Of a stretch of 64,000 nt of DNA, positions 160 through 39,250 are shown in pieces. How positions within the stretch are numbered: the first letter of the stretch is position 1; each line of letters opens with the position of its first letter. Source of the DNA: Comamonas antarctica (GTDB lineage: Bacteria; Pseudomonadota; Gammaproteobacteria; Burkholderiales; Burkholderiaceae_C); assembly GCF_013363755.1 (NCBI RefSeq), contig NZ_CP054840.1, positions 124,001 through 188,000 on the forward strand, in the 5' to 3' direction. Position numbers and translations under genes: made by a program. Below the pieces are notes generated by a model that was not told the origin of the DNA, ran no database searches, and saw nothing but the letters and a program-made list of their open reading frames with translations.

Positions 160-987
160 TCAGGCAGTGGGCGCGGTGCGGGGCCGCACGCTGATGTCCG
201 AACTGGTCACGGCGCGCAGGCCCGCGTCGGTCTGCACCAGCAGCGCGCCATCGGGACCCACGCCCTGGGCCAGGCCGCTCTGGCCGTCGCTCAGGTTGAC
301 GACACGGCCTTGCAGCAAGTCGCGTTCGGCAAAGCGCGCGCGCACCGGTGCAAAGCCGTGCTGTTCAAAGGCCTGCAGGGCCTGGACCAGCGGCGGCACG
401 ATGCGGCCCAGCGCCGTGGGGGCGTCGAGCGCGGGGTCGATGTCGTGCAGGCTGGCCGGCTTGGTCGACAGGCCTTCGGCCGCGGGTGCCCGCACGTTGA
501 GACCCATGCCGATCACCACATAGCGCGACGGGCCGCCGGGGCCGATGCCGTTGGCGGTCTCGATCAGGATGCCGCCAAGCTTGCGGTCGCCTTCGAGCCA
601 GAGGTCGTTGGGCCATTTGAGGCCCAGGCGTGCGCGCGCATCGCCCGCAGAGGGCAGCTGCGGCTGCAGGCTTTGCGCCAGGCTCACGCCCACGGCCAGC
701 GACAGTCCCGACCATTCGACCGGGTCCATGGGCAGGCCCAGCGAGAAGGTCAGCGAATCGCCGATGCCGCTGACCCACTGGCGGCCGAGCCGGCCGCGGC
801 CCGCGGTCTGGCTTTCGGTGACCAGCAAGATGGGTTCGCAGCGGCCGGCGCGCGCGCGGCGCATCAGCTCGGTATTGGTGGAATCGATCTCCGGCAGGAT
901 CTCGACGCTGAAGCCCTCGAGCAGCGGGCTCACGGCCTGCCAAAGCGTCTCGGCGGGCCAGCGGATGGGGTGGGCAGGCAGGCTCAT
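160..987 (-). CDS. birA: Biotin--[acetyl-CoA-carboxylase] ligase, catalytic-domain-only form
   Basis: Activates biotin to biotinyl-AMP and transfers it to the lysine of biotin carboxyl carrier protein in the cytoplasm. The 275-residue product shows the BPL signature GRGRLGR (63-69) and KWPNDL (124-129) followed by RKLGGILIE, the ATP/biotin-binding parts of the LplA/BirA fold. There is no room for the N-terminal winged helix that lets E. coli BirA (321 aa) repress the bio operon, so this one should be a ligase without repressor function. The start at 987 is chosen because its ATG overlaps the stop of the upstream SET gene as ATGA, implying translational coupling; a longer open frame upstream lacks homology to the family. 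Confidence 0.93.
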   Translation of the reverse strand: MSLPAHPIRWPAETLWQAVSPLLEGFSVEILPEIDSTNTELMRRARAGRCEPILLVTESQTAGRGRLGRQWVSGIGDSLTFSLGLPMDPVEWSGLSLAVGVSLAQSLQPQLPSAGDARARLGLKWPNDLWLEGDRKLGGILIETANGIGPGGPSRYVVIGMGLNVRAPAAEGLSTKPASLHDIDPALDAPTALGRIVPPLVQALQAFEQHGFAPVRARFAERDLLQGRVVNLSDGQSGLAQGVGPDGALLVQTDAGLRAVTSSDISVRPRTAPTA

Positions 988-1502
988 GCGGCGCGCTCCA
1001 GCTGGTCGCCAGGCATCGGCGGGCGCCAGCCGCGCTTGGGCGCGAGCAGCGTGCCGCGGCAGTTGGCAGCGCCGCAATAGCAGGGATACTCGGCCTTGAG
1101 CTTGGCGGTATAGCGTTCTTCGAGCATCAGGCCATAGTCGTAGTTCAGCTCCTCGCCGGCCGCAATGTTGCGCAGCGCGCGGATGAAGATGCGGCCGTCC
1201 TGCTCGTCGGTGTAGCAGTTGGGGTTGCAGCTGTGGTTGATCCAGCGCGACGAGTTGCCGCCGAAGTTGGCGTCGATCACGCGGTCTTCGTCGACGTGGA
1301 AGTAGAAGGTGTGGTTGGGCTGCAGCGGATCGTGCGGGTGGCGGTCCTGGGCCTGCTGCCAGGAAATGATTTCACCCGTGTACTCAATGAGGATTTCGCC
1401 CTCGGCAATATCCTGCACGGCAAAGACCCCCTTGCCATGCACGCCGGAGCGCCGGGTCTGGATGCGGCGCGAGGCCGGCGAAGAGGGCTGGGTGCGGGGC
1501 AT
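984..1502 (-). CDS. Bacterial SET-domain protein-lysine methyltransferase
   Basis: A 172-residue protein that is almost entirely a SET domain, the AdoMet-dependent lysine methyltransferase fold of eukaryotic histone methyltransferases. Visible motifs in order: SGVHGKGVFA (19-28, AdoMet site), NHSCNPN (89-95), GEELNYDY (116-123, catalytic tyrosine region) and a post-SET zinc knuckle with C141, C143 and C148 that would join C92. All essential residues are present, so activity is expected. The start is the ATG at 1500-1502; the open frame continues upstream without resemblance to the family. It overlaps birA by four bases and faces topB across about 120 bases. Bacterial SET proteins are known (for example in Chlamydia, Legionella and Burkholderia), with histone-like or ribosomal targets; the substrate here is unknown. 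Confidence 0.88.
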   Translation of the reverse strand: MPRTQPSSPASRRIQTRRSGVHGKGVFAVQDIAEGEILIEYTGEIISWQQAQDRHPHDPLQPNHTFYFHVDEDRVIDANFGGNSSRWINHSCNPNCYTDEQDGRIFIRALRNIAAGEELNYDYGLMLEERYTAKLKAEYPCYCGAANCRGTLLAPKRGWRPPMPGDQLERAA

Positions 1503-1522
1503 TGGAATCTCTGATACTTTGA

Positions 1523-1555
1523 ATATGCACACATGCGCGTGCGCGTGCACGCGTG
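1523..1555. repeat. 33-bp perfect alternating purine-pyrimidine tract (possible Z-DNA)
   Basis: Every base from 1523 to 1555 alternates purine and pyrimidine, mostly GC/GT/CA steps, the sequence type that converts most easily to left-handed DNA under negative supercoiling. It lies in the shared upstream region of the SET-birA genes (minus) and topB (plus), 21 bases before the SET ATG and 65 before the topB ATG. The alternation is seen directly; the Z-DNA reading is inference from known sequence preferences. Confidence 0.75.
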
Positions 1556-1620
1556 AGAATGGATTGTAGAAGCGCTTGCCAGCCCTTGAGGGAGGGCGCT
1601 TGAAATGACGAGAACACACA

Positions 1621-4536
1621 ATGACAAAAACACTGGTGATTGCCGAGAAGCCTTCCGTGGCGCAGGACATTGTCCGGGCGCTGACCCCTGTCGCGGGCAA
1701 GTTCGAAAAGCACGATGACCATTTCGAGAGCGACGGCTATGTGGTGACGAGCGCCGTGGGCCACCTGGTGGAAATCCAGGCCCCCGAGCAGTTCGACGTC
1801 AAGCGCGGCAAATGGAGCTTTGCCAATCTGCCGGTGATCCCGCCCTTCTTCGACCTGAAGCCCGTCGACAAGACCAAGAGCCGTTTGAATGCCGTGGTGC
1901 GGCTGGCCAAGCGCAAGGACGTCACGCGCCTGGTCAACGCGTGTGACGCGGGCCGCGAGGGTGAGCTGATCTTCCGCCTGATCGAGCAGTACGCGGGCGG
2001 CAACAAGCCGCTGGGCAAGCCGGTGCAGCGCCTGTGGCTGCAGTCGATGACGCCGCAAGCCATCCGCGCGGGCTTCGAGAGCCTGCGCAGCAACGAGCAG
2101 ATGCAGGGCCTGGCCGACGCCGCGCGCAGCCGTTCCGAGGCCGACTGGCTGGTGGGCATCAACGGCACGCGCGCCATGACGGCGTTCAATTCGCGCGATG
2201 GCGGCTTCTTCCTGACCACCGTCGGCCGGGTGCAGACGCCGACGCTGTCGGTGGTCGTCGAGCGCGAGGAGAAGATCCGCAAGTTCGTGAGCCGCGATTA
2301 CTGGGAGATCCACGGCACCTTCGGTGCCCAGGCCGGCGAGTACCTGGGCAAGTGGTTCAATCCGCAATGGAAGAAAAGCGAAGACGCCGAGCTGCGCGCC
2401 GACCGCGTGTGGAGCCTGGCCGAAGCCCAGGCGATTGCCCAGGCCGCGCGCGGCAAGCCGGCCGTGGTGACCGAGGAAAGCAAGCCCACGACCCAGGCCT
2501 CGCCGCTGCTGTTCGATCTGACCAGCCTGCAGCGCGAAGCCAACGGCAAGTTCGGCTTTTCGGCCAAGACCACGCTGTCGATCGCGCAAAGCCTTTATGA
2601 GCGCCACAAGGCCCTGACCTATCCGCGTACCGATTCGCGTGCGCTGCCAGAGGATTACCTGCCCGTGGCGCAGCAGACCTTCGAGATGCTGGCCAAGAGC
2701 GGCATGCGCCACCTCGAGCCGTTTGCGCAGCAGGCCCTGCAGAACAACTACGTGCGCCCGAGCAAGCGCATCTTCGACAACAGCAAGGTGTCGGACCACT
2801 TCGCCATCATCCCGACCACGCAGGCGCCGAGCGGCCTGAGCGAGGCCGAGCAAAAGCTCTATGACCTGGTGGTGCGCCGCTTCATGGCGGTGTTCTTCCC
2901 GAGCGCCGAGCACCAGGTGACGACGCGCATCAGCCGTGTCGAGAACAACCACTTCAAGACCGAAGGCAAGGTGCTGGTCAAGCCGGGCTGGCTGGCGATC
3001 TACGGCAAGGAAGCCGCGCACGAAGTCGAGGACGCCAAGGACGGCGACAAGGGCCAGAACCTGGTGCCGGTGCAGCCCGGCGAGCAGCCGCTGGCCAAGG
3101 CCGTCGATCCCAAGGGTCTCAAGACCAAGCCGCCCGCGCGCTACTCCGAAGCCACGCTGCTGGGCGCGATGGAAAGCGCGGGCAAGCAGGTCGAGGACGA
3201 GGAACTGCGCTCGGCAATGCAGGAAAAGGGCCTGGGCACGCCAGCCACGCGCGCAGCCATCATCGAAGGTCTGCTGACCGAGAAATACATGCTGCGCGAA
3301 GGCCGCGAGCTGATTCCCACGGCCAAGGCCTTCCAGCTGATGACGCTGCTGCGCGGCCTGGGCGTCGAGGAGCTGTCGCGCGCCGAGCTCACCGGCGAGT
3401 GGGAGTACAAGCTGTCGCAGATGGAAAAGGGCCAGCTGTCGCGCGAAGCCTTCATGCAGGAAATCGCCGGCATGACCGAGCGCCTGGTGAAGAAGGCCAA
3501 GGAATACGACCGCGACACCATTCCCGGCGACTACGCGACGCTGAACACGCCTTGCCCGAACTGCGGCGGCGTGGTCAAGGAAAACTACCGCCGCTACGCC
3601 TGCACCGGCGCCGACGGCAAGAGCAGCGGCTGCGGCTTCTCGTTCACCAAGTCCCCGGCCGGGCGCACCTTCGAGACGCACGAGGCCGAAGCCCTGCTGC
3701 GCGACCGGCGCATCGGCCCGCTGGAAGGTTTCCGTTCCAAGGCCGGCTGGCCGTTCGTGGCCGAAGTCGCCATCGTGCGCGACGAGGAGAACAACAACTA
3801 CAAGCTCGAGTTCGATTTCGGCGATGACGCCAACGCCGAGGACACGGGCGAGATCGTCGATTTCACGCGCCAGCAGCCGCTCGGCCCCTGCCCGAAGTGC
3901 GGCGCGCCGGTGTTCGAGCATGGCAGCAACTATGTCTGTTCCAAGGCCGTGCCCACGCCGGCCCAGGCCGTGCCCAGCTGCGACTTCAAGAGCGGCCAGA
4001 TCATCCTGCAGCAGCCGATCGAGCGCGAGCAGATGGCCAAGCTGCTCGCGACCGGCAAGACCGACCTGCTGGAGAAGTTCGTCTCCAACCGCACGCGCCG
4101 CGCGTTCAAGGCCTTCCTGGTCTGGGATGCGGCCGAGGGCAAGGTGAATTTCGAGTTCGAGAAGCGCGATTCGAAGTACCCGGCACGCAAGACCGCGGGC
4201 GCACCGGCCAAGAAGGCGCCGGCGGCCAAGAAGGTGGCGGCAGCGAAAAAGGTGCCGGCGGCAAAGACCGCGGTTGCCAAGGCCGCGGCCAAGACCCCGC
4301 GCAAGGTCGCGTCGAATCTCACGCCCAGCCCCGAGCTGGCGGCCGTGATCGGCGGCGACATGGTCGCGCGCACCGAGGTCATCAAGAAGGTCTGGGACTA
4401 CGTCAAGGCCAACAACCTGCAGGATGCGACCAACAAGCGCGCCATCAACGCCGACGCCAAGCTCAAACCGGTGTTCGGCAAGGACCAGATCACGATGTTC
4501 GAGCTGGCCGGCATCGTTGGAAAGCATCTCGCTTGA
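1621..4536 (+). CDS. topB: DNA topoisomerase III with zinc ribbons, H1-like tail and C-terminal SWIB domain
   Basis: Type IA topoisomerase that passes single strands through a transient nick to decatenate and relax DNA. TOPRIM motifs are IAEKPSVAQDI near the N-terminus and CDAGREGELI (D109 region); the catalytic tyrosine is Y334 in TYPRTDSR. After the core come two zinc ribbons (CPNCGG near 645, CPKCGAP near 757). The 971-residue length greatly exceeds E. coli TopB (653): residues about 853-895 form a Lys/Ala/Pro tail like histone H1 (repeats of AAKK and AAAK), and about 899-971 form a SWIB/MDM2 domain ending LAGIVGKHLA. SWIB is a chromatin-remodelling domain, known fused to topoisomerase in Chlamydia. 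The gene diverges from the SET methyltransferase. Name certain; role of the tail unknown. Confidence 0.95.
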   Translation: MTKTLVIAEKPSVAQDIVRALTPVAGKFEKHDDHFESDGYVVTSAVGHLVEIQAPEQFDVKRGKWSFANLPVIPPFFDLKPVDKTKSRLNAVVRLAKRKDVTRLVNACDAGREGELIFRLIEQYAGGNKPLGKPVQRLWLQSMTPQAIRAGFESLRSNEQMQGLADAARSRSEADWLVGINGTRAMTAFNSRDGGFFLTTVGRVQTPTLSVVVEREEKIRKFVSRDYWEIHGTFGAQAGEYLGKWFNPQWKKSEDAELRADRVWSLAEAQAIAQAARGKPAVVTEESKPTTQASPLLFDLTSLQREANGKFGFSAKTTLSIAQSLYERHKALTYPRTDSRALPEDYLPVAQQTFEMLAKSGMRHLEPFAQQALQNNYVRPSKRIFDNSKVSDHFAIIPTTQAPSGLSEAEQKLYDLVVRRFMAVFFPSAEHQVTTRISRVENNHFKTEGKVLVKPGWLAIYGKEAAHEVEDAKDGDKGQNLVPVQPGEQPLAKAVDPKGLKTKPPARYSEATLLGAMESAGKQVEDEELRSAMQEKGLGTPATRAAIIEGLLTEKYMLREGRELIPTAKAFQLMTLLRGLGVEELSRAELTGEWEYKLSQMEKGQLSREAFMQEIAGMTERLVKKAKEYDRDTIPGDYATLNTPCPNCGGVVKENYRRYACTGADGKSSGCGFSFTKSPAGRTFETHEAEALLRDRRIGPLEGFRSKAGWPFVAEVAIVRDEENNNYKLEFDFGDDANAEDTGEIVDFTRQQPLGPCPKCGAPVFEHGSNYVCSKAVPTPAQAVPSCDFKSGQIILQQPIEREQMAKLLATGKTDLLEKFVSNRTRRAFKAFLVWDAAEGKVNFEFEKRDSKYPARKTAGAPAKKAPAAKKVAAAKKVPAAKTAVAKAAAKTPRKVASNLTPSPELAAVIGGDMVARTEVIKKVWDYVKANNLQDATNKRAINADAKLKPVFGKDQITMFELAGIVGKHLA

Positions 4537-4572: not shown

Positions 4573-5370
4573 ATGCGCTACGCTGTGGCCATGGCTTCTA
4601 CGACTGCATCCCCGCTTCCATCCGGCACCAGTCTGCCGGCCCGTGTGCTGCGCCTCGAAGGCAGCAGCAACTTCCGCGACCTCGGCGGCTACACCACCGC
4701 CGACGGCCGCAGCCTGCAATGGCGGCGGCTGTTCCGCTCCGACCACCTCGCGGGCCTGTCGGCGGCCGACCTGCGGGCGCTGGCCGCGCTGAAGATCGGC
4801 CACAGCGTCGACTTCCGCGGCGCCAACGAGTGCGCGGTGCAGGGCTATGCCTGGCCGCAGTTCCAGCGCCATGCGTTCATGGTCGAGCCGACCGTGGTGC
4901 AGCGCACCCAGGAACTGCTGGCCGCGGGCCACCAGCTCACGGCCGCGGATACCGTGGGGCTGATGCAGGACACCTACCGCAGCTTCGTGCGCGACAACGC
5001 CGACCGCTTCGCGCGCCTGTTCCAGCTGCTGCTGCAAAGCGATGCGCCGCTGGTGTTCCATTGCACGGCCGGCAAGGACCGCACGGGCTGGGCCGCGGCG
5101 CTGATCCTGTACGCGCTGGGCGTCTCGCGCGAGCAGATCATGGAAGACTACCTGCTGACCAACGTCCATTACCAGCGGCCGGTGGCGGCCGTGGCGGGCC
5201 GGCTGCCCGAGGAGGTGCTCGAGGTGCTGTGGCGCGTGCAGAACGCATTTCTCGACAGTGCACTGGAGCTGGTCGACCGCGACCATGGCGGCATGGACCG
5301 CTACCTCGCCGAGGTGCTGGGCATGGACCGCGCCGCGCGCGCGCAACTCGCGCAGCGCTATCTCGAATAG
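4573..5370 (+). CDS. Tyrosine/serine phosphatase of the IphP (Y_phosphatase3) family
   Basis: Predicted cytoplasmic dual-specificity protein phosphatase. The 265-residue product contains NFRDLGGY near the N-terminus and the P-loop HCTAGKDRTGWAAAL, with the nucleophilic Cys and phosphate-binding Arg of the CX5R motif, typical of the IphP/LipA-type family that also dephosphorylates phosphoinositides in some pathogens. An internal ATG six codons later (4591) is an alternative start; neither has a convincing ribosome site. It follows topB on the same strand after 36 bases. The true substrate cannot be read from the sequence. Confidence 0.85.
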   Translation: MRYAVAMASTTASPLPSGTSLPARVLRLEGSSNFRDLGGYTTADGRSLQWRRLFRSDHLAGLSAADLRALAALKIGHSVDFRGANECAVQGYAWPQFQRHAFMVEPTVVQRTQELLAAGHQLTAADTVGLMQDTYRSFVRDNADRFARLFQLLLQSDAPLVFHCTAGKDRTGWAAALILYALGVSREQIMEDYLLTNVHYQRPVAAVAGRLPEEVLEVLWRVQNAFLDSALELVDRDHGGMDRYLAEVLGMDRAARAQLAQRYLE

Positions 5371-5439
5371 CTGCCGCACATCCCGTTACCGGCTTGTGCG
5401 TGCGCTGGTTAGCATCGGGGCTTGTTGACGGGAGTTTTC

Positions 5440-5586
5440 ATGAAGATTTGCATTCGATGGTGCGCGGCGCTGGCATGCGTTGCGGGGCTGGCGGGCTGCG
5501 CGGGCGGGGTGGCATCCTCGGAGAGTGGCGGCAGCGGGGTGACGGTGTTTGGTACGGTCGATGCCGGAGTGAGCCGGGTGCGCTAG
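5440..5586 (+). CDS. Small predicted lipoprotein (48 aa) with porin-like C-terminal motif
   Basis: A short gene with a good ribosome site (GGGAG at 5430-5434) ahead of ATG 5440. The product starts MKICIRWCAALACVAGLAGC, a charged start, hydrophobic core and a textbook lipobox (LAGC), so it should be cleaved before Cys20 and lipidated, leaving a mature peptide of only 29 residues. The mature part is Gly/Ser-rich and ends GVTVFGTVDAGVSRVR, which resembles the first beta strand of Burkholderiales porins (VTLYGxVDAG). It could be a genuine small lipoprotein or the remnant of a longer gene; no function can be assigned. Confidence 0.55.
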   Translation: MKICIRWCAALACVAGLAGCAGGVASSESGGSGVTVFGTVDAGVSRVR

Positions 5587-5603
5587 AGGTCTGGCCGTCC
5601 ATG

Positions 5604-5675
5604 CTTCGACAGGCTCAGCACGAACGGTTTTGAACCCGGCCCTGCTTAGACAAGCTCGGCACGACCGGTTTTTGA
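5604..5675. repeat. Two REP-like units (TTCGACAGGCTCAGCACGAA type)
   Basis: Two imperfect copies, at about 5604-5631 and 5643-5675, of a short element of the form CTTCGACA-GCTC-GCACGA-CGGTTTT. The same family recurs four times at 61.8-62.1 kb. It occupies the whole gap between the small lipoprotein gene and the putP stop. Such units are known as extragenic palindromic repeats in many Gram-negative genomes; the assignment is by pattern. Confidence 0.6.
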
Positions 5676-5700
5676 ACAGCCGCTTGTCAACGGGACCCTT

Positions 5701-7191
5701 TCAGCTGCCAAGCTGCGCGATCTCCCGGTCCACTTCCGCATGGAGTTCCCGTTGCCGCGCCGACGGCGGCTTGTCCAGCAGGCTCACGGCGGCGATGGCC
5801 AGCGTGGCGAAGGCAAAGCCGGGCACCAGTTCATAGAGCCCGAACCAGTGGTAGTGCCGCCACACGAGCACCGTGAGCGCGCCCACCACCATGCCGGCAA
5901 GCGCGCCGTTGCGCGTCATGCGCGGCCAGACCAGGCTCAGCAGCACCAGCGGGCCGAAGGCCGCGCCAAAGCCGGCCCAGGCGTAGCTGACCATGCCCAG
6001 CACGCGGCTGTCCGGGTCCTGGGCGATGAGGATGGCGATGAGGGTCACGGCCAGCACCATGGCACGGCCGAACCAGACCAGTTCGCGCTGGCCTGCATCG
6101 CGGCGCAGGAAGGCCTTGTACAGGTCCTGGGTCAGCGCGCTGGCGCAGACCAGCAACTGGCAGGACAGGGTGCTCATGATCGCGGCCAGCATGGCGGCCA
6201 GCAGCATGCCGCTGATCCAGGGGTTGAACAGCAGCTTGGCGACTTCGAGGAACACGGTTTCGGCGTTGCCGGCCACATTGGCAGCCAGTTCGGGGCGCTG
6301 GCCGAAGAACGCAATGCCGAAGAACCCCACGGCCACCGCACCTCCCAGGCACAGCACCATCCAGCTCATGCCGATGCGCCGCGCCGTGGGAATGCGCCGG
6401 ACCGACTCGGCGGCCATGAAGCGCACCAGGATGTGCGGCTGGCCGAAGTAGCCCAGGCCCCAGGCCAGCAACGACACGATGGCAACGGTGTCGAGCGAGG
6501 CGATCATGTCGAACGCGCCCGGACGTGTGCGCTCGATGACCGCGCTGCTTGCGGCCACGCCGCCATCGGCATGGATCACCATCAGGGGCGCGAGAATCAG
6601 CGCGGTGATCATCAGCGAGGCCTGCAGGGTATCGGTCCAGCTCACGGCCAGGAAGCCGCCGACCAGTACATAGGCCATGGTGGCAAACGCACCAACCCAT
6701 AGCGCCAGGCGGTAGTCCATGCCGAACATGCTCTCGAACAGCCGCGCGCCCGCGACCACGCCCGACGCGCAGTAGATGGTGAAGAACACCAGGATCACCA
6801 GAGCCGTGACGATGCGCAGCAGCTGGCTGCGGTCCTCGAAGCGGTTGGTGAAGTAGTCGGGCAGGGTCAGCGCGTTGCCGACCTTCTCGGTATAGACGCG
6901 CAGGCGCGCCGCGACAAAGCGCCAGTTGCACCACGCGCCGACGCACAGGCCGATGGCAATCCACGACGCCGACAGCCCCGACACGAACACCGCGCCCGGC
7001 AGGCCCATCAGCAGCCAGCCGCTCATGTCGGAGGCGCCCGCGGACAGCGCCGTGACCACGCTTCCCAGGCTGCGGCCGCCGAGGATGTAATCCGACAGGT
7101 TGGCAGTGGCGCGCCAGCCGAACCAGCCGATCAGCAGCATGGCCAGCAGATAGATGGCAAAGGTGACGGTCGTGGGCAGGTTCGCGCTCAT
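5701..7191 (-). CDS. putP: Sodium/proline symporter
   Basis: Inner-membrane sodium:solute symporter (SSS family) importing L-proline with Na+. The 496-residue product has the expected series of about 13 hydrophobic segments and the family features SDYILGGRSLGSVVTALSAG and ASDMSGWLLMGLPG near the N-terminus, the region that binds Na+ and proline in E. coli PutP (502 aa). The start at 7191 (MSANLPTT) is preceded on the minus strand by GGAGA four bases away, better than an ATG 14 codons upstream. It stands alone, with no putA beside it; proA, the biosynthetic counterpart, lies far away at 62.5 kb. Confidence 0.93.
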   Translation of the reverse strand: MSANLPTTVTFAIYLLAMLLIGWFGWRATANLSDYILGGRSLGSVVTALSAGASDMSGWLLMGLPGAVFVSGLSASWIAIGLCVGAWCNWRFVAARLRVYTEKVGNALTLPDYFTNRFEDRSQLLRIVTALVILVFFTIYCASGVVAGARLFESMFGMDYRLALWVGAFATMAYVLVGGFLAVSWTDTLQASLMITALILAPLMVIHADGGVAASSAVIERTRPGAFDMIASLDTVAIVSLLAWGLGYFGQPHILVRFMAAESVRRIPTARRIGMSWMVLCLGGAVAVGFFGIAFFGQRPELAANVAGNAETVFLEVAKLLFNPWISGMLLAAMLAAIMSTLSCQLLVCASALTQDLYKAFLRRDAGQRELVWFGRAMVLAVTLIAILIAQDPDSRVLGMVSYAWAGFGAAFGPLVLLSLVWPRMTRNGALAGMVVGALTVLVWRHYHWFGLYELVPGFAFATLAIAAVSLLDKPPSARQRELHAEVDREIAQLGS

Positions 7192-7308
7192 GGCATCTCC
7201 GGACAGGGCGGGGGATTGCCCGATTGTGGGCACCCGCCTGCCGCGCGCGAGCCAGGGCCGGGGCCGGGCGCAAGCCAGACGGCTGCGCGCCCTGCCGAGG
7301 CGCTGCGC

Positions 7309-9777
7309 CTAGGGCGCGGTCCAGGCTTCGGCGGGCGCGTCGGCCGGCACCGAGTACAGGCTGCCGCGCGTGAGCGGCAGCAGCGGCGTGCTTTCCTCGA
7401 TGGCTTCGCCCGGCATGGGCAGGCCGGTGGCCGGCACCACGGTGATGCGCTGCGGCGGCTCGGGAGCCGGTTCGGGCTCGGGTTGCGCCGGCGCGGCGTC
7501 GGGACGGGGCTGGGGCCGCAGCTTCGGCGTATCGCCTGGGATGGGCGGTGCCGGTGCCCACCAGTCGTTCCAGCGGCTTTGCAATGCTGCGCCCAGGCCG
7601 CTCCACCAGTGGTTTTCCACGGGTTCGGTGAACTTCGCCTTGGCGTCGATCACGCGTGCGCGCAGCGCGCGCGCCGTGAAGTCGCCGACAATCGGCAGCG
7701 CGCTGCGCGCACCCTGGCCCCATTGCTCGTTGCGCAGGTTGATGCGGCTGTCGTTGAAGCCGGCCCAGGCGCCCACCACCAGTTCAGGATGCATCAGGAT
7801 GAACCAGCCGTCGGCATTGTTCTGCGTGGTGCCGGTCTTGCCGGCGACATCGGCGCGGATGCCGTATTGCTGGCGGATGGCGCGCGCCGTGCCCTTGTCG
7901 ACCACGCCGCGCAGCATGTCGACCAGCGCATAGCTGAGGCGCGCGTCGAACACCTGTTCGGCCTTCGTCGGCGCGAATTCCGCGAGCACCTCGCCGTCGC
8001 GGTTCTCGATGCGCGTGACCCACATCGGTTCGTGATAGCTGCCGCCATTGGCCAGCGTGCCATAGGCGCTGACCATTTCCTTGAGCGTGACCGGGCTGCT
8101 GCCCAGCGCCAGTGCCGGCACCGGCTCCAGCGGGCTCTGGCGCACGCCCAGCGCGCGCGCCAGTTGCACGACCCGGCCCACGCCGACTTCCTGCATCAAC
8201 TCGGCGGTGATGGTGTTCTTCGAATAGGCCAGCGCGTCGGCCAGCGTCATGTCCCTGCCGCTCGGGGGGCCGGCATCGGCCGGGCGCCAGACCTCGCCGC
8301 CGGCCAGCGTGATTTCCACCGCCTGGTCGGGGCGCTGGTCCTGTGCGCGCAGGCCTTGCTGGAGCGCGGCGCCATAGACAAACGGCTTGAAGGTCGAGCC
8401 TGGCTGGCGCCGCGCCTGCTGCACGTGGTCGAAACCGTCCAGGCTGAAGTCGCGGCTGCCGACCCATGCCCGCACCGCACCCGTGGCCGGGTCCACGGCC
8501 AGGAAGCCGGCTTCAGGCCGCAGCTTGTCGGCGCGCAGCCGGCGCATGAAGGCCTGGTCCTTGAGCAGGGCCTGCAGCGCCTCGTCGGGGCCGAGCTTCG
8601 ACTTGCGGAATTCAGCCGACTCGCGCACCAGCATCTGGACCAGCGGATTGTCGGCACTCCATCCGCCGCGCTGGTTCCAGCCGGCATTGGCCACGCCCTG
8701 CAGCGTGCGGCCCTGGCGCGCCACGGCCTGGGTGGCCCAGGCCTGCAGCCGCATGTCGAGCGTGGTGTGCACCACCAGGCCGTCGGTGTGGATGTTGTAG
8801 CCGTTGCTGTCGGCCCAGGCGATGAGCCATTTGCGCAGCTGCTGCGTGAAATGCGGCGCCGGGCCCGTCGGTTCTTCCTGGCGTTCGAAGTCGATGCGCA
8901 GCGGGCGCTTCTTCAACTGCTCGAACGTGGCGGCATCGAGTTCGTCGCGTTTGACCATCTGCGACAGCACGGTGTTGCGCCGCGCCACCGAGCGCTCGGG
9001 ATTGAGTACCGGGTTGTAGTAGCTCGTGCCCTTGAGCATGCCGACCAGCGTTGCCGATTCGATCACGTTCAACTGCTTCGCCGGCTTGTCGAAATAGGTG
9101 CGCGCCGCCATCTCGATGCCATAGGCGTTGTAGAGGAAGGGAACGGTGTTGAGGTAGGTCTCGAGGATTTCGTCCTTGGAGTAGAGCGCCTCGATCTTGA
9201 ACGCGGTGATGGCTTCCTTGAGCTTGCGCGTGAGCGTCGGCGCGCGGCCGATTTCCTCGGGGTAGAGGTTGCGCGCGAGCTGCTGCGTGATGGTCGAGCC
9301 GCCCTGGCGGTCGCCGCTCAGCGTGTAGACCAGCGACGAGGCCGTACGCCGCCAGTCGAGCCCATGGTGCTGGTAGAAGCGGTGGTCCTCGGTGGCAATC
9401 AGCGCCTTGACCACGGCCGGCGCGATCTGTTCGAGCGCCACCCAGTCGCGGTTGCTGCGCTTGAACACGGCCAGTTCCTTGCCGTCCTGGCTCAGGATCT
9501 GCGCCGGCTGCTCGAGCCGGGCCTTGCGGATGTCGCGGATGCCCGGGGTGAAGGGAATCAGCACCAGCACATACAGCAAGCCCAGAGCGGGCAGCGCCGC
9601 CAGGCCCCACAGCCACTGGCGCCGCGTGGGGCGGCGCAGCGCGGCAAGGCGCGCGCGCGTCGGGAACCAGGGCCGGGCCTGCGCATGTTGCCATGCGGCC
9701 GCCACGCGGGCGGGCAGCTTCAAGTCATTCACGGAAAAGCGCACGGTGCTGAGCAGGCCAGGCTGCTGAAAATCCAA
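7309..9777 (-). CDS. Class A penicillin-binding protein (PBP1A type, bifunctional)
   Basis: Polymerises lipid II into glycan strands and cross-links the stem peptides; anchored in the inner membrane with the bulk in the periplasm. In order: cytoplasmic N-terminus rich in Arg, one membrane segment (about 56-77), a GT51 transglycosylase domain with catalytic E130 in ATEDHRFYQHHG and GGSTITQQLARNLY, then a transpeptidase domain with S461 in PGSTFKPF, SKN in AYSKNTITAE, and K647 in GKTGTTQ. A Pro/Ala-rich C-terminal tail follows. Length 822 is normal for PBP1A-like enzymes. The start is a TTG at 9777; a GTG a few codons inside is possible. E. coli-type outer lipoprotein activators are not encoded nearby. 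Confidence 0.92.
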   Translation of the reverse strand: MDFQQPGLLSTVRFSVNDLKLPARVAAAWQHAQARPWFPTRARLAALRRPTRRQWLWGLAALPALGLLYVLVLIPFTPGIRDIRKARLEQPAQILSQDGKELAVFKRSNRDWVALEQIAPAVVKALIATEDHRFYQHHGLDWRRTASSLVYTLSGDRQGGSTITQQLARNLYPEEIGRAPTLTRKLKEAITAFKIEALYSKDEILETYLNTVPFLYNAYGIEMAARTYFDKPAKQLNVIESATLVGMLKGTSYYNPVLNPERSVARRNTVLSQMVKRDELDAATFEQLKKRPLRIDFERQEEPTGPAPHFTQQLRKWLIAWADSNGYNIHTDGLVVHTTLDMRLQAWATQAVARQGRTLQGVANAGWNQRGGWSADNPLVQMLVRESAEFRKSKLGPDEALQALLKDQAFMRRLRADKLRPEAGFLAVDPATGAVRAWVGSRDFSLDGFDHVQQARRQPGSTFKPFVYGAALQQGLRAQDQRPDQAVEITLAGGEVWRPADAGPPSGRDMTLADALAYSKNTITAELMQEVGVGRVVQLARALGVRQSPLEPVPALALGSSPVTLKEMVSAYGTLANGGSYHEPMWVTRIENRDGEVLAEFAPTKAEQVFDARLSYALVDMLRGVVDKGTARAIRQQYGIRADVAGKTGTTQNNADGWFILMHPELVVGAWAGFNDSRINLRNEQWGQGARSALPIVGDFTARALRARVIDAKAKFTEPVENHWWSGLGAALQSRWNDWWAPAPPIPGDTPKLRPQPRPDAAPAQPEPEPAPEPPQRITVVPATGLPMPGEAIEESTPLLPLTRGSLYSVPADAPAEAWTAP

Positions 9778-9867
9778 AGCGCGCAGTGTGGCTGAAAACG
9801 CCCGAAGCTGCTCAGGCGCCGCCGCCTTGCCTCTGGCAGCGGCCGTTTGGCCCTGTGCCGCGTGGCG

Positions 9868-10431
9868 TTATGCGGGCGCCAGCCAGTCGGCTAGTTGCTC
9901 GGCGTGGTGCTGTTCCTGTTCGAGGATGGACTCCAGCAGCCGGCGCGTGGTCGGATCCTTGTCGCCGATCAAGGCCACCATCTGGCTGTAGGCCTCGACG
10001 GCCACGCGCTCGGCAATCAGGTTGGCGCGCAGCATGGCCTGCAGGTCGCGCACCGGGCTGTAGGCGGCGTGGCTGCGCTGGGTCAGCGTGTCGGGGTTGA
10101 AGTCGGGCTCGCCGCCGAGCTGCACGATGCGCCGCGCAAGCCGGTCGGCGTGACGGGCCTCGTCGTTGGCATGCACCATGAACTCGCTGGCAATGGCGGG
10201 CGACGCCAGCCCGACGGCGGTGAAATGGTGGCGCCTGTAGCGCAGCACGCAGACCCATTCGGTGGCCAGCGCATCGTTGAGCAGGGCAATGATTTCCTCG
10301 CGCCAGAGGCCGAAATGCGGGGTCACGGCGCCGGTCTGCAGATCGCTCCTGGCGGCTTCGAGGCCAGCCTGGTTCAGGGCCAGGCGCTCGCGCGCTGCAG
10401 CGGCATCGAGGTGCGCTCTGGAGTGTTTCAT
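9868..10431 (-). CDS. Ferritin-like diiron protein (bacterioferritin/Dps-related)
   Basis: A 187-residue four-helix-bundle protein. Four helices carry the ligands expected of a diiron site: E in LATEWVCVLRYRRHHF, the ExxH-like EARH in NDEARHADRL, E in IAERVAVEAY and EQHH in LEQEQHHAEQL. This spacing matches ferritin-like oxidases and the bacterioferritin-like proteins annotated in Burkholderiales. It probably oxidises or stores iron, or acts in stress protection. The ATG at 10431 has a purine-rich upstream stretch. It is flanked by unrelated genes and has no ferredoxin partner (bfd) nearby; Fur is encoded 43 kb away. Confidence 0.8.
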   Translation of the reverse strand: MKHSRAHLDAAAARERLALNQAGLEAARSDLQTGAVTPHFGLWREEIIALLNDALATEWVCVLRYRRHHFTAVGLASPAIASEFMVHANDEARHADRLARRIVQLGGEPDFNPDTLTQRSHAAYSPVRDLQAMLRANLIAERVAVEAYSQMVALIGDKDPTTRRLLESILEQEQHHAEQLADWLAPA

Positions 10432-10623
10432 GGCCGTCTCTCCGTCCCCGCAGGGGAGTCTCTAGAGCGTAGACGGGGGCAGGCGCACCGGGTGTGGGAA
10501 AACCGCGCATGGCCAACCGTGAAAAAGGCGCGATGCAGCCGCCCGGGCGCAGCGTAAAGACCCGGGGCCGGCGCCAGGGCCGGGTGCTGGGCGATACTCG
10601 GCTGCTTGGGAAGAGGCGCCGCC

Positions 10624-11247
10624 ATGGCGCAAGGAGTGGGCGTGAAATCTGCAAGTGACAGTTGGTTCGACGAGGCGTACTACGAGCGCTATTACTTCGA
10701 CAAGAAGACCAGCGTGGTCGACCCCCAGCACATGGAGCGCCTGGGCAACTTCGTCTGCAGCTACCTCAAGTACCTGCGCGTGCCGGTACAACGCGTGCTC
10801 GACGTCGGCTGCGGCATCGGACTGTGGCGCGACATCATCGCGCGGCATTTCCCCGACGCCACGTTCCACGGCGTCGAATACAGCGCCTATCTGTGCGAGC
10901 GCTTTGGCTGGGAGCGCGGATCGGTGGTCGACTACCGCGCCGATGAACCCTTCGACTTCGTCATCTGTCAGGGCGTGCTGCCCTATCTGAGCGCTGCCGA
11001 CCTCAAGCACGCACTGCACAATTTCTCCCGCCTGAGCCGCGGCGCCCTGTATATCGAGGCGGTATCGCACGAGGATTGGGAGCGCGACATCCTCGACGAG
11101 ACGCTGACCGACCCGCGGCTGTTCCGCCACCGCGCGGCGCTCTACCGGCGTGGACTGTCGCAGGGCTTCATCGAGCTGGGCGGCGGCATCTGGCTGAGCC
11201 GCGCTGCCGAGGTGCCGCTGTTCGAGCTCGAATGCGCAGCCCGCTGA
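10624..11247 (+). CDS. Class I SAM-dependent methyltransferase
   Basis: A 207-residue cytoplasmic enzyme with the glycine-rich AdoMet motif VLDVGCGIG (58-66), an acidic residue after the second strand (VEYS) and a third motif FDFVICQGVLPYL. An aromatic N-terminal stretch (SWFDEAYYERYYFD) is characteristic of small methyltransferases of this type in Burkholderiales. The start at 10624 has AAGAGG 8 bases upstream. Its TGA overlaps the ATG of the DTW-domain gene (TGATG), so the two are translationally coupled and may act on a common substrate, perhaps RNA; that is inference. Confidence 0.82.
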   Translation: MAQGVGVKSASDSWFDEAYYERYYFDKKTSVVDPQHMERLGNFVCSYLKYLRVPVQRVLDVGCGIGLWRDIIARHFPDATFHGVEYSAYLCERFGWERGSVVDYRADEPFDFVICQGVLPYLSAADLKHALHNFSRLSRGALYIEAVSHEDWERDILDETLTDPRLFRHRAALYRRGLSQGFIELGGGIWLSRAAEVPLFELECAAR

Positions 11248-11999
11248 TGGACCAGCACACCCCGCCCCACGCGGTATCGCGGCTGCGCACGGCACGCCTG
11301 GCGCGCAGCGTCAAGCCCTTCCTGGCGCGCGGCGGGCCGCGCGGCGAGCGCTGCGCGGGTTGCCGGCTGCGTCCGAGCCATTGCCTGTGCGCGCTGCGTC
11401 CCACGCAGGCCACGCAGGCTGGCGTCTGCCTGCTGATGGCCGATACCGAGCCGCTCAAGCCCAGCAACACCGGCTGGCTCGTGGCGGATGTGGTGCAGGA
11501 CACGTTTGCGTTCGGCTGGTCGCGTACCGAGGTCGACCCGGCGCTGCTGGCGCTGCTGGACGATCCGCAATGGCAGCCGTTGGTGGTGTTTCCCGGCGAG
11601 TATGCGGAGCAGGCGCGCGTGGTGCATGCGGTCGAGCCCGCGGCGCGCGCAGGCCGGCGCCCGCTGTTCGTGCTGCTGGACGCGACCTGGCCCGAAGCGC
11701 GCAAGATGTTCCGCAAGAGTCCCTACCTGAACCGTTTTCCGGTGCTGAGCCTGCTGGCCGAACAGGTGTCGCGCTACCAGCTGCGCCGCTCCCGCCGCGG
11801 CGACCATTTCTGCACCGCCGAGGTCGCGGCGCTGTGCCTGGAGCTGGGTGGCGACACGCGTGCGGCGCAGGCGCTCGAAGCCTATTTCGACGTGTTCACC
11901 CACCACTACCTGCAGGCCAAGCACCAGCTGCCGCCGGACCTGGAAAGCGCGCCGCACCGGCAGCTGCAGGCGCTGGCAGCGGCCCGGCCGGCAGCCTGA
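11247..11999 (+). CDS. DTW-domain tRNA-uridine aminocarboxypropyltransferase
   Basis: Predicted to transfer the 3-amino-3-carboxypropyl group from SAM to uridine 47 of tRNA (acp3U), the activity established for the DTW/TapT family. The 250-residue product shows a zinc-binding CxxC...CxC cluster (C36, C39, C46, C48) in GERCAGCRLRPSHCLC and the family signature DATWPEARKM (D145, W148), plus SxRxGD near 183. The ATG at 11247 shares a base with the stop of the methyltransferase gene; a second in-frame ATG lies at 11232. The coupling suggests a two-gene RNA-modification unit. Confidence 0.85.
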   Translation: MDQHTPPHAVSRLRTARLARSVKPFLARGGPRGERCAGCRLRPSHCLCALRPTQATQAGVCLLMADTEPLKPSNTGWLVADVVQDTFAFGWSRTEVDPALLALLDDPQWQPLVVFPGEYAEQARVVHAVEPAARAGRRPLFVLLDATWPEARKMFRKSPYLNRFPVLSLLAEQVSRYQLRRSRRGDHFCTAEVAALCLELGGDTRAAQALEAYFDVFTHHYLQAKHQLPPDLESAPHRQLQALAAARPAA

Positions 12000-12113
12000 A
12001 CGCCAGGCGCTTTCACCCTGCAGGATGCTGCGCCGCAGGGCTTGCGGCACAATCACGCCCCTTGCGGTGTTCGTGTGCCGCGCCGATACCTGCCACTTAC
12101 GCTCCCGACCGCC

Positions 12114-12362
12114 ATGACCCAGAACCGCTCCGCCACGTCCGACCAATCGCCTGAACTGTGCGCCTCCTGCGCGGGCATCCAGCGCAACTGGCGCCGCGCG
12201 CCTGGCCATGTCGAGCTGCAGCAGCATGGCAACCGCAAGGAAGAACGCGCTTCGGGCCTGGTGACCGTCACGCGCTACCAGTGCGACCAGTGCGGCACGA
12301 TCTGGGACTACGAGAACGACAAGCAGAACCAGCACGCAGGCTGGTCCATCGTCAAGCGCTGA
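12114..12362 (+). CDS. Small zinc-ribbon protein of unknown function
   Basis: An 82-residue protein with two CxxC knuckles, CASCAG near residue 17 and CDQCGTIWDYE near 58, which would bind one zinc ion. The segment between is basic and carries RNWRRAPGHVELQQHG. I do not recognise a named family; it looks like a conserved Burkholderiales hypothetical. The start at 12114 is the first ATG that keeps both knuckles. It follows the DTW gene on the same strand after 114 bases, with a CACAAT hexamer between, so it may be separately transcribed. Confidence 0.62.
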   Translation: MTQNRSATSDQSPELCASCAGIQRNWRRAPGHVELQQHGNRKEERASGLVTVTRYQCDQCGTIWDYENDKQNQHAGWSIVKR

Positions 12363-12886
12363 GCGCAGGGCCCCGGCAAAGCGGCAGCCGCCCGCGCCGC
12401 CAAGCCCCACGGCACCTGCCGGCGCCGGTGGCTGCCAGGCCACGTTGCATCATTTTTCATTCGATACAAGTCCTGCTGCACCGGCTCTCCCGGAGCCTGC
12501 AGCATTTGGCGTTTCCCTCGCGCCGCAAGCACCCAGCTTTCTACTATTGCTTACAGGCGCTGTAGGCTTTTTTCCCTTGTTGGTCCTTTTGATTGCCTTT
12601 AAATTTCATAGCACGGACTTGAGCTGAAACCGTGGTTAGAATGAAACACAGCTGATCTTTTTCAGCTTTCTCGGCGCCTACCAGCCGCAACGCTGTGCCA
12701 CCGCTTCCGGCGGGCCGCAGCATCTGCAAGACCTGGGTCATAGGCGTCCAATTCACCCGCTTTTGCGTCGTGTGCCGTTGTTCGCACTGCTGCCGATGAA
12801 TGGAGCCAGTGCTGGCCGAGCGTGCGCAGGCTACGCCTGCCGTGCATCTGCTTTTCCCCTGTTGTCAGCCGGGCCGTGCCCGTCGA
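12363..12886. other. Long non-coding stretch, AT-richer than its surroundings
   Basis: No convincing gene in 524 bases. The middle (about 12440-12660) is clearly AT-richer than the neighbourhood, with runs such as CATCATTTTTCATTC and CTTTTTTCCCTTG. A short hairpin with arms AGCTGA/TCAGCT around a T-rich loop sits near 12650-12666. Short open frames on both strands are hydrophobic or low in complexity and have no ribosome site. It probably carries the promoter of the acyltransferase gene. Confidence 0.5.
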
Positions 12887-38263: not shown

Positions 38264-39250
38264 CTATTTCAACCAGCCGCGCTTGCGGAAGTAGAGCATG
38301 GGACCGACCGCGCTGGCCGCCATCAGCAGCAGCGCGAACGGGTAGCCCAGCGTCCATTCAAGCTCGGGCATGAACTTGAAGTTCATGCCGTAGGCGCTGG
38401 CCACCAGCGTCGGCGGCAGCAGCGCGACGCTGGCCACCGAGAAGATGCGGATGATCTTGTTCTGGTTGATGTTGATGAAACCAACGGTCGCATCCATCAG
38501 GAAGTTGATCTTCTCGAACAGGAAGGCGGTGTGGCTGTCGAGCGATTCGATGTCGCGCAGGATCTGGCGCGCCTCCTCGAACTGCTCGGCGTTGAGCATC
38601 TTGCTGCGCATCATGAAGCTTACCGCGCGGCGCGTGTCCATCACGTTGCGGCGGATGCGCGAGTTCATGTCTTCCTGGCGCGCAATGGCCGACAGCACGT
38701 CGCTGGCGCGCGCATCGTCGACCTCGCCGGACAGCACCTGGGTGCTGACTTTTTCCAGCGCGTCGTAGATGCGCTCGAGCGTGTCGGCCGAGTACTCGGC
38801 GTCGGCATCGAACAGCTTGAGCAGCACTTCCTTCGCATCCTCGAGCAGGCCCGGTGCGCGGCGCGCGCGCATGCGCAGCAGGCGGAACACCGGCACGTCC
38901 TCGTCGTGGATGGAAAACAGCACGCCGCGGCTCTTGAGCTCGGCGTTGTGCTGGTTCAGGATGAAGGCCACGCGCACCGAGCGCGGGTCGTCGTCATCGT
39001 CGATCAGGAAGTCGCTGCGGATGTGCAGCTCGCCATTGTCTTCTTCATAGAAACGCGCCGATTCCTCGATGTCCTCGTCCATCGCGTCTTCGGGGATCGA
39101 CAGGCCGTAGTGCTGCTTGATCCAGCGCTTTTCCTCGAGCGTGGGCGACTCCAGGTCGACCCAGATGGGCTGAAACCGTGCCAGGTCTTCCAGCGAGTCG
39201 ATTTCTCCCTGGACCAGGCGGCCATTGGTCAGCGTAAAGATGTTGAGCAT
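38264..39250 (-). CDS. corA: Magnesium/cobalt transport protein CorA
   Basis: Pentameric inner-membrane Mg2+ channel. The 328-residue product has a large acidic cytoplasmic funnel (for example DAMDEDIEESARFYEEDNGE and IDDDDDP), the long stalk helix, then two membrane segments near residues 268-287 and 302-320; the first ends with the selectivity signature YGMNF (287-291), and MPEL occupies the periplasmic loop. The C-terminus is basic (FRKRGWLK). All hallmark residues are present. A stable hairpin lies in the 5' region. Confidence 0.95.
   Translation of the reverse strand: MLNIFTLTNGRLVQGEIDSLEDLARFQPIWVDLESPTLEEKRWIKQHYGLSIPEDAMDEDIEESARFYEEDNGELHIRSDFLIDDDDDPRSVRVAFILNQHNAELKSRGVLFSIHDEDVPVFRLLRMRARRAPGLLEDAKEVLLKLFDADAEYSADTLERIYDALEKVSTQVLSGEVDDARASDVLSAIARQEDMNSRIRRNVMDTRRAVSFMMRSKMLNAEQFEEARQILRDIESLDSHTAFLFEKINFLMDATVGFININQNKIIRIFSVASVALLPPTLVASAYGMNFKFMPELEWTLGYPFALLLMAASAVGPMLYFRKRGWLK

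Follow-up and report, generated by a model that had tools for sequence, protein, structure and literature searches.

The window described here is a stretch of 64,000 nucleotides from Comamonas antarctica, taken at its full length. In it, topB, which encodes a DNA topoisomerase III, is transcribed away from a gene for a SET-domain protein and, behind that, a birA-like gene for a biotin–protein ligase. The 118 bp between SET and topB hold a 33-bp tract in which purines and pyrimidines alternate without interruption, a pattern prone to adopt the left-handed, Z form of DNA. The divergent gene arrangement is kept across a Comamonadaceae-type family of bacteria and so, in most of its genera, is the alternation. 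We propose that the tract lies between two promoters that face each other across it, one for topB and one for SET-birA, and that it may make them sensitive to torsion; we put this reading a shade below an even chance. What makes the locus noteworthy is that the tract is probably a structural promoter element, sensitive to torsion and retained at this single place by most of the family. The features concerned are these:

160 to 987, minus strand: birA-like biotin–protein ligase, 275 amino acids, overlapping the SET stop (ATGA); presumed SET-birA operon
984 to 1502, minus strand: SET-domain protein-lysine methyltransferase-like gene, 172 amino acids, ATG at 1502 and stop at 984–986, catalytic motifs intact
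1512 to 1520, plus strand: extended −10-like box TGaTACTTT oriented toward topB, which would place the start of transcription close to the tract's left edge (sequence pattern only)
1523 to 1555, no strand: 33-bp perfect alternating purine–pyrimidine (Z-DNA-prone) tract
1563 to 1568, minus strand: −10-like box TACAAT oriented toward SET-birA, which would place the start of transcription close to the tract's right edge (sequence pattern only)
1621 to 4536, plus strand: topB, DNA topoisomerase III with a SWIB domain, 971 amino acids (NF011313/PRK14724)
4168 to 4317, plus strand: lysine/alanine-rich, H1-like linker of TopB, about residues 850–899
4318 to 4530, plus strand: SWIB/MDM2 domain of TopB, residues 900–970

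In our sample of 150 genomes of the family, SET is matched in 141 and TopB (E ≤ 1e-200) in 144. Where both occur they are almost always neighbors: 132 of 137 genomes, spanning 123 genera, have SET and topB side by side and divergent, with gaps of 36–807 bp (median 160) between the ends of the matches. In the five exceptions the genes lie on different contigs (G293, G313, G375 and G384) or 8 kb apart (G327). topB occurs without SET in seven family genomes, and SET without a topB match in four. The nearest named loci come mostly from Acidovorax, Comamonas, Delftia, Simplicispira, Curvibacter, Rhodoferax and their kin; 79 of 80 reach topB, and SET is its divergent neighbor in all 79. We take SET and birA as what they look like, one operon, because the stop of SET overlaps the start of birA (TCAT at 984–987), and birA shares in the arrangement. 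The main order is birA-SET<>topB, found in 94 of the 101 loci that extend 2.5 kb or more upstream of topB; birA occurs in 97 of these and SET in 95. Chance does not explain the pairing of SET with topB, since 132 of 137 genomes keep it whereas the gene on the other side of topB, downstream, is kept in one of 77 loci. The pairing is conserved and real, more strongly than a first look at one sequence could know.

SET-birA and topB could have been joined once, in the ancestor of the family, and have stayed together through inertia, SET and topB being functionally unconnected. The equal linkage of birA fits this account, as do three genomes without SET (G274, G321 and G272), in whose loci birA directly adjoins topB, and so does the situation outside the family, where the listed match coordinates place SET and topB mostly apart. 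But the flanking order decays on both sides: the six genes beyond birA that can be reached in 20-kb loci are present in 48, 0, 1, 2, 43 and 26 of 77 loci, and topB's other side fares no better than stated above. A genus in a second family, moreover, also has SET and topB as neighbors, in another orientation. Neutral inertia is a serious rival, if in our judgment an unlikely one.

Two loci deserve separate mention. In G266 the SET gene beside topB (G266:C1:2638183-2638461) aligns to query residues 10–102 alone, and the genome has another SET match at a different place; the copy beside topB is possibly a decaying one. The closest named locus, L254 (NZ_CACSJA010000009.1), has 93% SET identity and a 33-bp tract with one base different. 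Its title, Pantoea sp. 18069, is ill-fitting, and the assembly is probably mislabelled or mixed.

The tract stands out both in this genome and in its relatives. Positions 1523–1555 are the sole place in the 5.03-Mb genome with an alternating purine–pyrimidine run of 24 bp (abbreviated ‘RY24’). Among 133 family SET-topB intergenics, the longest run averages 24.4 bp and reaches 56, compared with 7.5 after mononucleotide shuffling and 9.5 after dinucleotide shuffling, and in 100 of the 133 it exceeds all 100 dinucleotide shuffles. Runs of at least 14 bp occur in 115 of these intergenics, representing 105 of 123 genera, and in 73 of the 79 named loci. They are also confined in position. Across 96 loci of the family, each 12 kb or longer (1.77 Mb altogether), every one of the 64 runs of 20 bp or more lies within 800 bp upstream of topB, and so does the longest run of the locus in 79 of the 96. 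Genome-wide, 81 of 132 genomes have at least one RY24 run; 67 have it at this site, 49 of them exclusively, and the site accounts for 285 of the 433 RY24 matches. No run of 14 bp or more precedes topB in any of 44 loci from outside the family (longest 12, median 8; a 45th locus is too short). Six RY24 sites elsewhere, compared by eye, have no gene in common, and their genes look unrelated. The window itself has one other run of at least 16 bp, of 17 bp, at 38861-38877.

By this comparison the tract goes with topB rather than with SET, because a run persists in three of the six SET-less genomes with at least 200 bp upstream of topB. In G321, G381 and G272 it is 17–21 bp long; in G286 it is interrupted, and in G274 and G339 there is none.

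It is the alternation that appears to be kept, while the sequence drifts. Identity between the tracts of different genomes is 0.799, and 0.797 in shuffles that preserve alternation. We followed substitutions in 42 independent close pairs, with a randomly chosen reference that has the tract, using a one-sided test corrected for the choice of an intact reference. Changes inside the reference tract comprise 44 transitions and 6 transversions, compared with 117 and 121 in the flanks; indels inside it are even in length in 18 cases and odd in none, compared with 40 and 63 in the flanks. The identities bear on the idea that the tract is the binding site of a sequence-specific regulator. In its favor, the boxes that flank the tract are conserved in sequence, but the match between observed and shuffled identities within the tract leaves that idea very improbable.

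The boxes are of interest in their own right. GGATTGTAG, which is the TACAAT box facing SET, recurs as TTGTA on the 3′ side of the tract, in 116 of 133 intergenics where 3.5 would be expected, and TGnTAnnnT facing topB occurs in 72 of 122 left flanks (expected, 6.6). The TTGTA box is kept in five of the six SET-less topB upstreams, all but that of G339, and would serve birA where birA is the neighbor. Taken as −10 boxes, the flanking boxes would place the starts of the two transcripts at the edges of the tract, near 1527 (plus strand) and 1556 (minus strand), with transcription entering it from opposite sides.

On this footing, SET-birA and topB would form a conserved divergent unit whose promoters face each other over the tract. 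When negative torsion rises, whether through gyrase or through two diverging polymerases, the tract would flip to Z-DNA, and in that form would absorb supercoils and get in the way of RNA polymerase where each transcript begins. Topoisomerase activity would reverse the change. In this way the tract would tie the output of topB, together with the output of SET and birA, regulated jointly with it, to the topology of the DNA around it, in a direction that sequence does not reveal. SET itself would most likely be a housekeeping lysine methyltransferase, co-regulated with topB. To estimate when the transition from B- to Z-DNA sets in, we used 5 kcal/mol per junction, 0.7 for CG and 1.3 for CA/TG, as given in the accessible part of PMC3024258, and general background values for TA and for twist. 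With constants of this mixed origin, onset is estimated at |σ| of about 0.029–0.043 (median 0.034) for the 115 family tracts. Bacterial DNA can attain such densities, particularly where it lies between two polymerases moving apart. The tract has what is expected of a Z-DNA-forming element, a long run (33 bp) and a predicted onset at accessible superhelical density, and we infer that left-handed DNA may form there in cells. That it amounts to a natural Z-DNA switch operating family-wide, through which torsion sets the dose of a topoisomerase and a protein-lysine methyltransferase together, is a bolder proposition, and we hold it tentatively, at appreciably less than an even chance.

Several findings weigh against the torsion-sensitive promoter, in this and the next two paragraphs. 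Eighteen of the 133 intergenics have no 14-bp run; when interruptions are allowed, four of these surpass every one of 200 shuffles, and the other 14 fall short of that. Six of the 79 named loci have no tract, and its absence from the SET-less genomes G274, G286 and G339 indicates that it is not indispensable. In 32 of 132 genomes, RY24 runs occur elsewhere as well, or exclusively elsewhere. The TGnTAnnnT box is missing from 50 of the 122 left flanks; no −35 element is evident, and no σ70 promoter with both hexamers was found in the intergenic. The deficit of transversions becomes milder once the choice of reference is corrected for, their share being 12% against an expected 34% (p = 4e-4).

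Even-length indels, furthermore, can also arise by slippage, and this opens the way to regarding the tract as a by-product of mutation, either a hotspot of dinucleotide slippage or the outcome of codon or dinucleotide bias. The indels, all 18 of them even, are what slippage would give, and purine–pyrimidine patterns are over-represented in beta-proteobacteria under a simple null model, a result of others cited in the portion of PMC4060949 available. Under the more realistic null model in the same portion, however, the patterns are suppressed in these bacteria. Slippage does not explain the bias toward transitions, and the tracts are mixtures of CG, TG, CA and TA rather than clean repeats. Nor would a general bias be expected to recur at one location in so many genera when such runs are rare elsewhere. 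We regard a purely mutational origin as quite improbable.

The base composition of the tracts is a further difficulty. Read in the sense of topB, the 115 family tracts contain 554 T and 306 A, and 1264 G and 938 C. The excess of T over A is not predicted by Z-DNA and is better suited to G-U pairs in RNA hairpins, or to strand-biased mutation; hairpins of 8–9 bp are predicted on both strands here, and RNA of the window's tract can form one of 8 bp. The tract might accordingly act in RNA, by folding the 5′ leader of the topB (or SET) transcript into a hairpin, or through pairing of overlapping antisense leaders. Purine–pyrimidine alternation is self-complementary in RNA, and the tracts are slightly more stable than shuffles that preserve alternation (mean z of −0.25 and −0.22 for 115 tracts). 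Yet this additional stability is small and equal on both strands, and the leaders presumed for the window have no folding advantage over dinucleotide shuffles (z of −0.45 and −0.49). Perfect alternation over 20–56 bp would also exceed what a hairpin needs, and one would expect odd indels and transversions to be acceptable in its loops and bulges. A role in RNA seems to us rather improbable, although less so than a mutational by-product, and a torsion-sensitive promoter remains the reading that we prefer.

A different relationship between the two genes had been suggested by the original prediction, made from the sequence of the window. It drew attention to two chromatin-type genes lying head to head at one intergenic, SET and topB, the latter encoding a lysine-rich tail and a SWIB domain, and it proposed the tail of TopB as a candidate substrate of SET, in what would be a topoisomerase controlled by methylation. 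Its description of the genes holds, and the two are conserved as neighbors in 123 sampled genera of the family. The SET protein matches the Pfam SET domain at 1.1e-25, and its best matches among solved structures are MLL-type SET domains (1.1e-27). It has the motifs of protein-lysine methyltransferases (NHxCxPNC, ELxYDY and the post-SET CxCx4C), and the enzyme looks intact because every one of its catalytic and post-SET residues (N89, H90, C92, N95, C96, D122, Y123, C141, C143 and C148) is shared by 97% or more of the 134 homologues from the family. It is the single SET-domain match in the genome of 5,025,439 bases. TopB matches the NCBIfam model NF011313/PRK14724, ‘DNA topoisomerase III’, over its full length with 2019.6 bits (cut-off 1088), and carries the C-terminal SWIB domain that belongs to that family.

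A writer and its substrate would be expected to be conserved together, which within the family they are, and the substrate lysines to be retained alongside the writer and relaxed without it, which the composition of the tails does not bear out. In SET-bearing family TopBs with a readable tail, at least 4 lysines are present in 135 of 136 (SWIB included), and in 63 of 64 among those without SWIB. SWIB itself is found in 73 of 144 family TopBs, the lysine/alanine-rich tail occurring both with it and without it, and all 73 have at least 8 lysines before the SWIB part. In the SET-less family TopBs, however, five of six readable tails have 8–12 lysines outside SWIB; the sixth, of G272, has no lysine and 6 arginines. 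Beyond the family the comparison covered the 45 TopBs for which loci were available; TopB is matched in 123 genomes there. Tails with at least 4 lysines occur in 23 of 24 SET-less cases (median lysine fraction 0.26) and in 17 of 21 SET-bearing ones (0.22), and the four SET-bearing exceptions all belong to a genus with SET and topB tail to tail, whose TopB tails are arginine-rich, with 0–1 lysine. On a TopB tree, from which G339 was left out (its TopB frame is broken), SET changes five times and SWIB six times; the three independent pairs include none in the same direction and are too few for a test. An apparent co-loss of SET and SWIB, read from alignment ends, was rejected, being seen neither in full proteins nor on the tree, so the co-loss that had been looked for does not appear.

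The lysine/alanine-rich tail is, on these comparisons, a general trait of these TopBs, and nothing ties it to SET, because lysine-rich tails are as frequent without SET and SWIB did not follow SET in any of the few independent pairs. Linkage does not single out topB either, because birA is linked as tightly (97 of 101 loci). In favor of the pair there remain the conserved proximity, the intact catalytic motifs, the near-universal lysines of SET-bearing tails, and one non-family genome, read in detail, with SET between gyrB and topB. Chlamydiae offer a precedent on both sides: cpnSET methylates the H1-like Hc1, and NUE did not methylate Hc1, according to the accessible part of a review (PMC3980110). 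Methylation of TopB in the cell would be compatible with these comparisons, and the tail is one weak candidate among possible substrates, but comparative data lend the idea of a methylation-controlled topoisomerase no support, and we consider it a long shot.

Outside the family, an exception to the usual separation of the two genes is the tail-to-tail genus just mentioned, a member of a second family, where SET and topB are convergent in all four SET genomes (G005, G055, G100 and G140). The locus read in detail (L227, from G005, 4733-12558) has the order dnaN-gyrB-SET-><-topB-dprA. In G217, SET lies about 1.6 kb from topB, and in several further genomes 4–17 kb separate them. The SET protein of G217 (L231 12945-13592) has a lysine/alanine-rich N-terminal tail of its own. 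Relatives of SET, at under 60% identity, occur on 52 plasmid or chromid records, mostly from Paraburkholderia (29) and Caballeronia (12); this kind of SET also travels, then, on replicons outside the setting of topB.

The C. antarctica genome has two further proteins related to those of the locus. A second, distant topoisomerase III (G000:C1:2158154-2160040) is 34% identical over query residues 5–655. A standalone SWIB protein of 100 amino acids, with a lysine/alanine-rich N-terminus, is encoded at L234 1960-2262 (G000:C1 about 2495959-2496261); SWIB matches occur in 148 of the 150 family genomes, many of which have a second, TopB-fused SWIB. The standalone protein is possibly an alternative substrate of SET, and possibly the source of the SWIB domain of TopB. 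No histone of the Chlamydia HC2 type was found in this genome at E ≤ 0.1.

Several known systems resemble parts of this one. As a protein, this TopB shows no difference from the NF011313/PRK14724 topoisomerase–SWIB fusion, sharing its full-length match and C-terminal SWIB; the model entry as printed is silent on linkage to SET and on a promoter tract, both of which are found here. Secreted effectors of the LegAS4/AnkI type were considered for SET and rejected: its sole NCBIfam match, the equivalog NF043024 (AnkI/LegAS4), reaches 45.8 bits against a cut-off of 550. This SET, of 172 amino acids, is encoded with birA, and family-wide. The Comamonadaceae-type family is largely free-living, and because SET is encoded with birA and conserved across such a family, its role would seem to lie inside the bacterium. 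BtSET, from Burkholderia thailandensis, is listed among SET effectors in the part of PMC3980110 referred to above. Also comparable are the chlamydial enzymes cpnSET and NUE, with Hc1 and Hc2, where likewise a SET protein and lysine-rich or SWIB chromatin-type proteins occur in one bacterium. There, cpnSET is reported to methylate Hc1 (same part of PMC3980110), whereas action of SET on TopB is here only hypothesized; and the fusion model with SWI is of topoisomerase I (PRK06319, which matches this TopB with 188.6 bits against a cut-off of 868), whereas here it is of topoisomerase III. A search of open-license literature for SET and SWIB with topoisomerase and bacterial methyltransferase gave work on Waddlia alone, as far as the accessible text goes. 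For identifying what a SET methyltransferase natively modifies, the conserved SET-birA<>topB block offers a clean system.

Topoisomerase genes are known to regulate themselves through supercoiling. The promoters of E. coli gyrase and topoisomerase I, and of mycobacterial topoisomerase I, sense supercoiling, as we propose for topB, and divergent transcription is recognized as a source of torsion (PMC4770202, in part). The effects named for those promoters are of the −10 element, the spacer, an overlapping promoter or a neighboring gene, and the term ‘Z-DNA’ is absent from the main text of that paper. Among the papers listed from open-license literature none was seen to report Z-DNA at topB, and none in that literature pairs Z-DNA with Comamonas; that the element has not been described before is a weak claim. 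In one survey, alternating purine–pyrimidine patterns were suppressed in prokaryotes, and B-to-Z transitions were accordingly suggested to be ‘generally undesirable’ (PMC4060949, in the portion available). The present site runs counter to that trend, being retained in 105 of 123 sampled genera, ahead of the gene for an enzyme of DNA topology. Its relatives constitute a natural series of tract lengths, with which a function for Z-DNA is directly testable in culturable bacteria; a physiological role of Z-DNA inside bacteria is not known to be established. If our proposal is true, DNA torsion itself would set the dose of a topology enzyme and, with it, of a protein-lysine methyltransferase. Peck and Wang reportedly found, in 1985, that RNA polymerase is blocked at a supercoil-induced structure in alternating CG; theirs was an artificial insert, whereas the tract before topB occurs naturally and persists across a family of bacteria.

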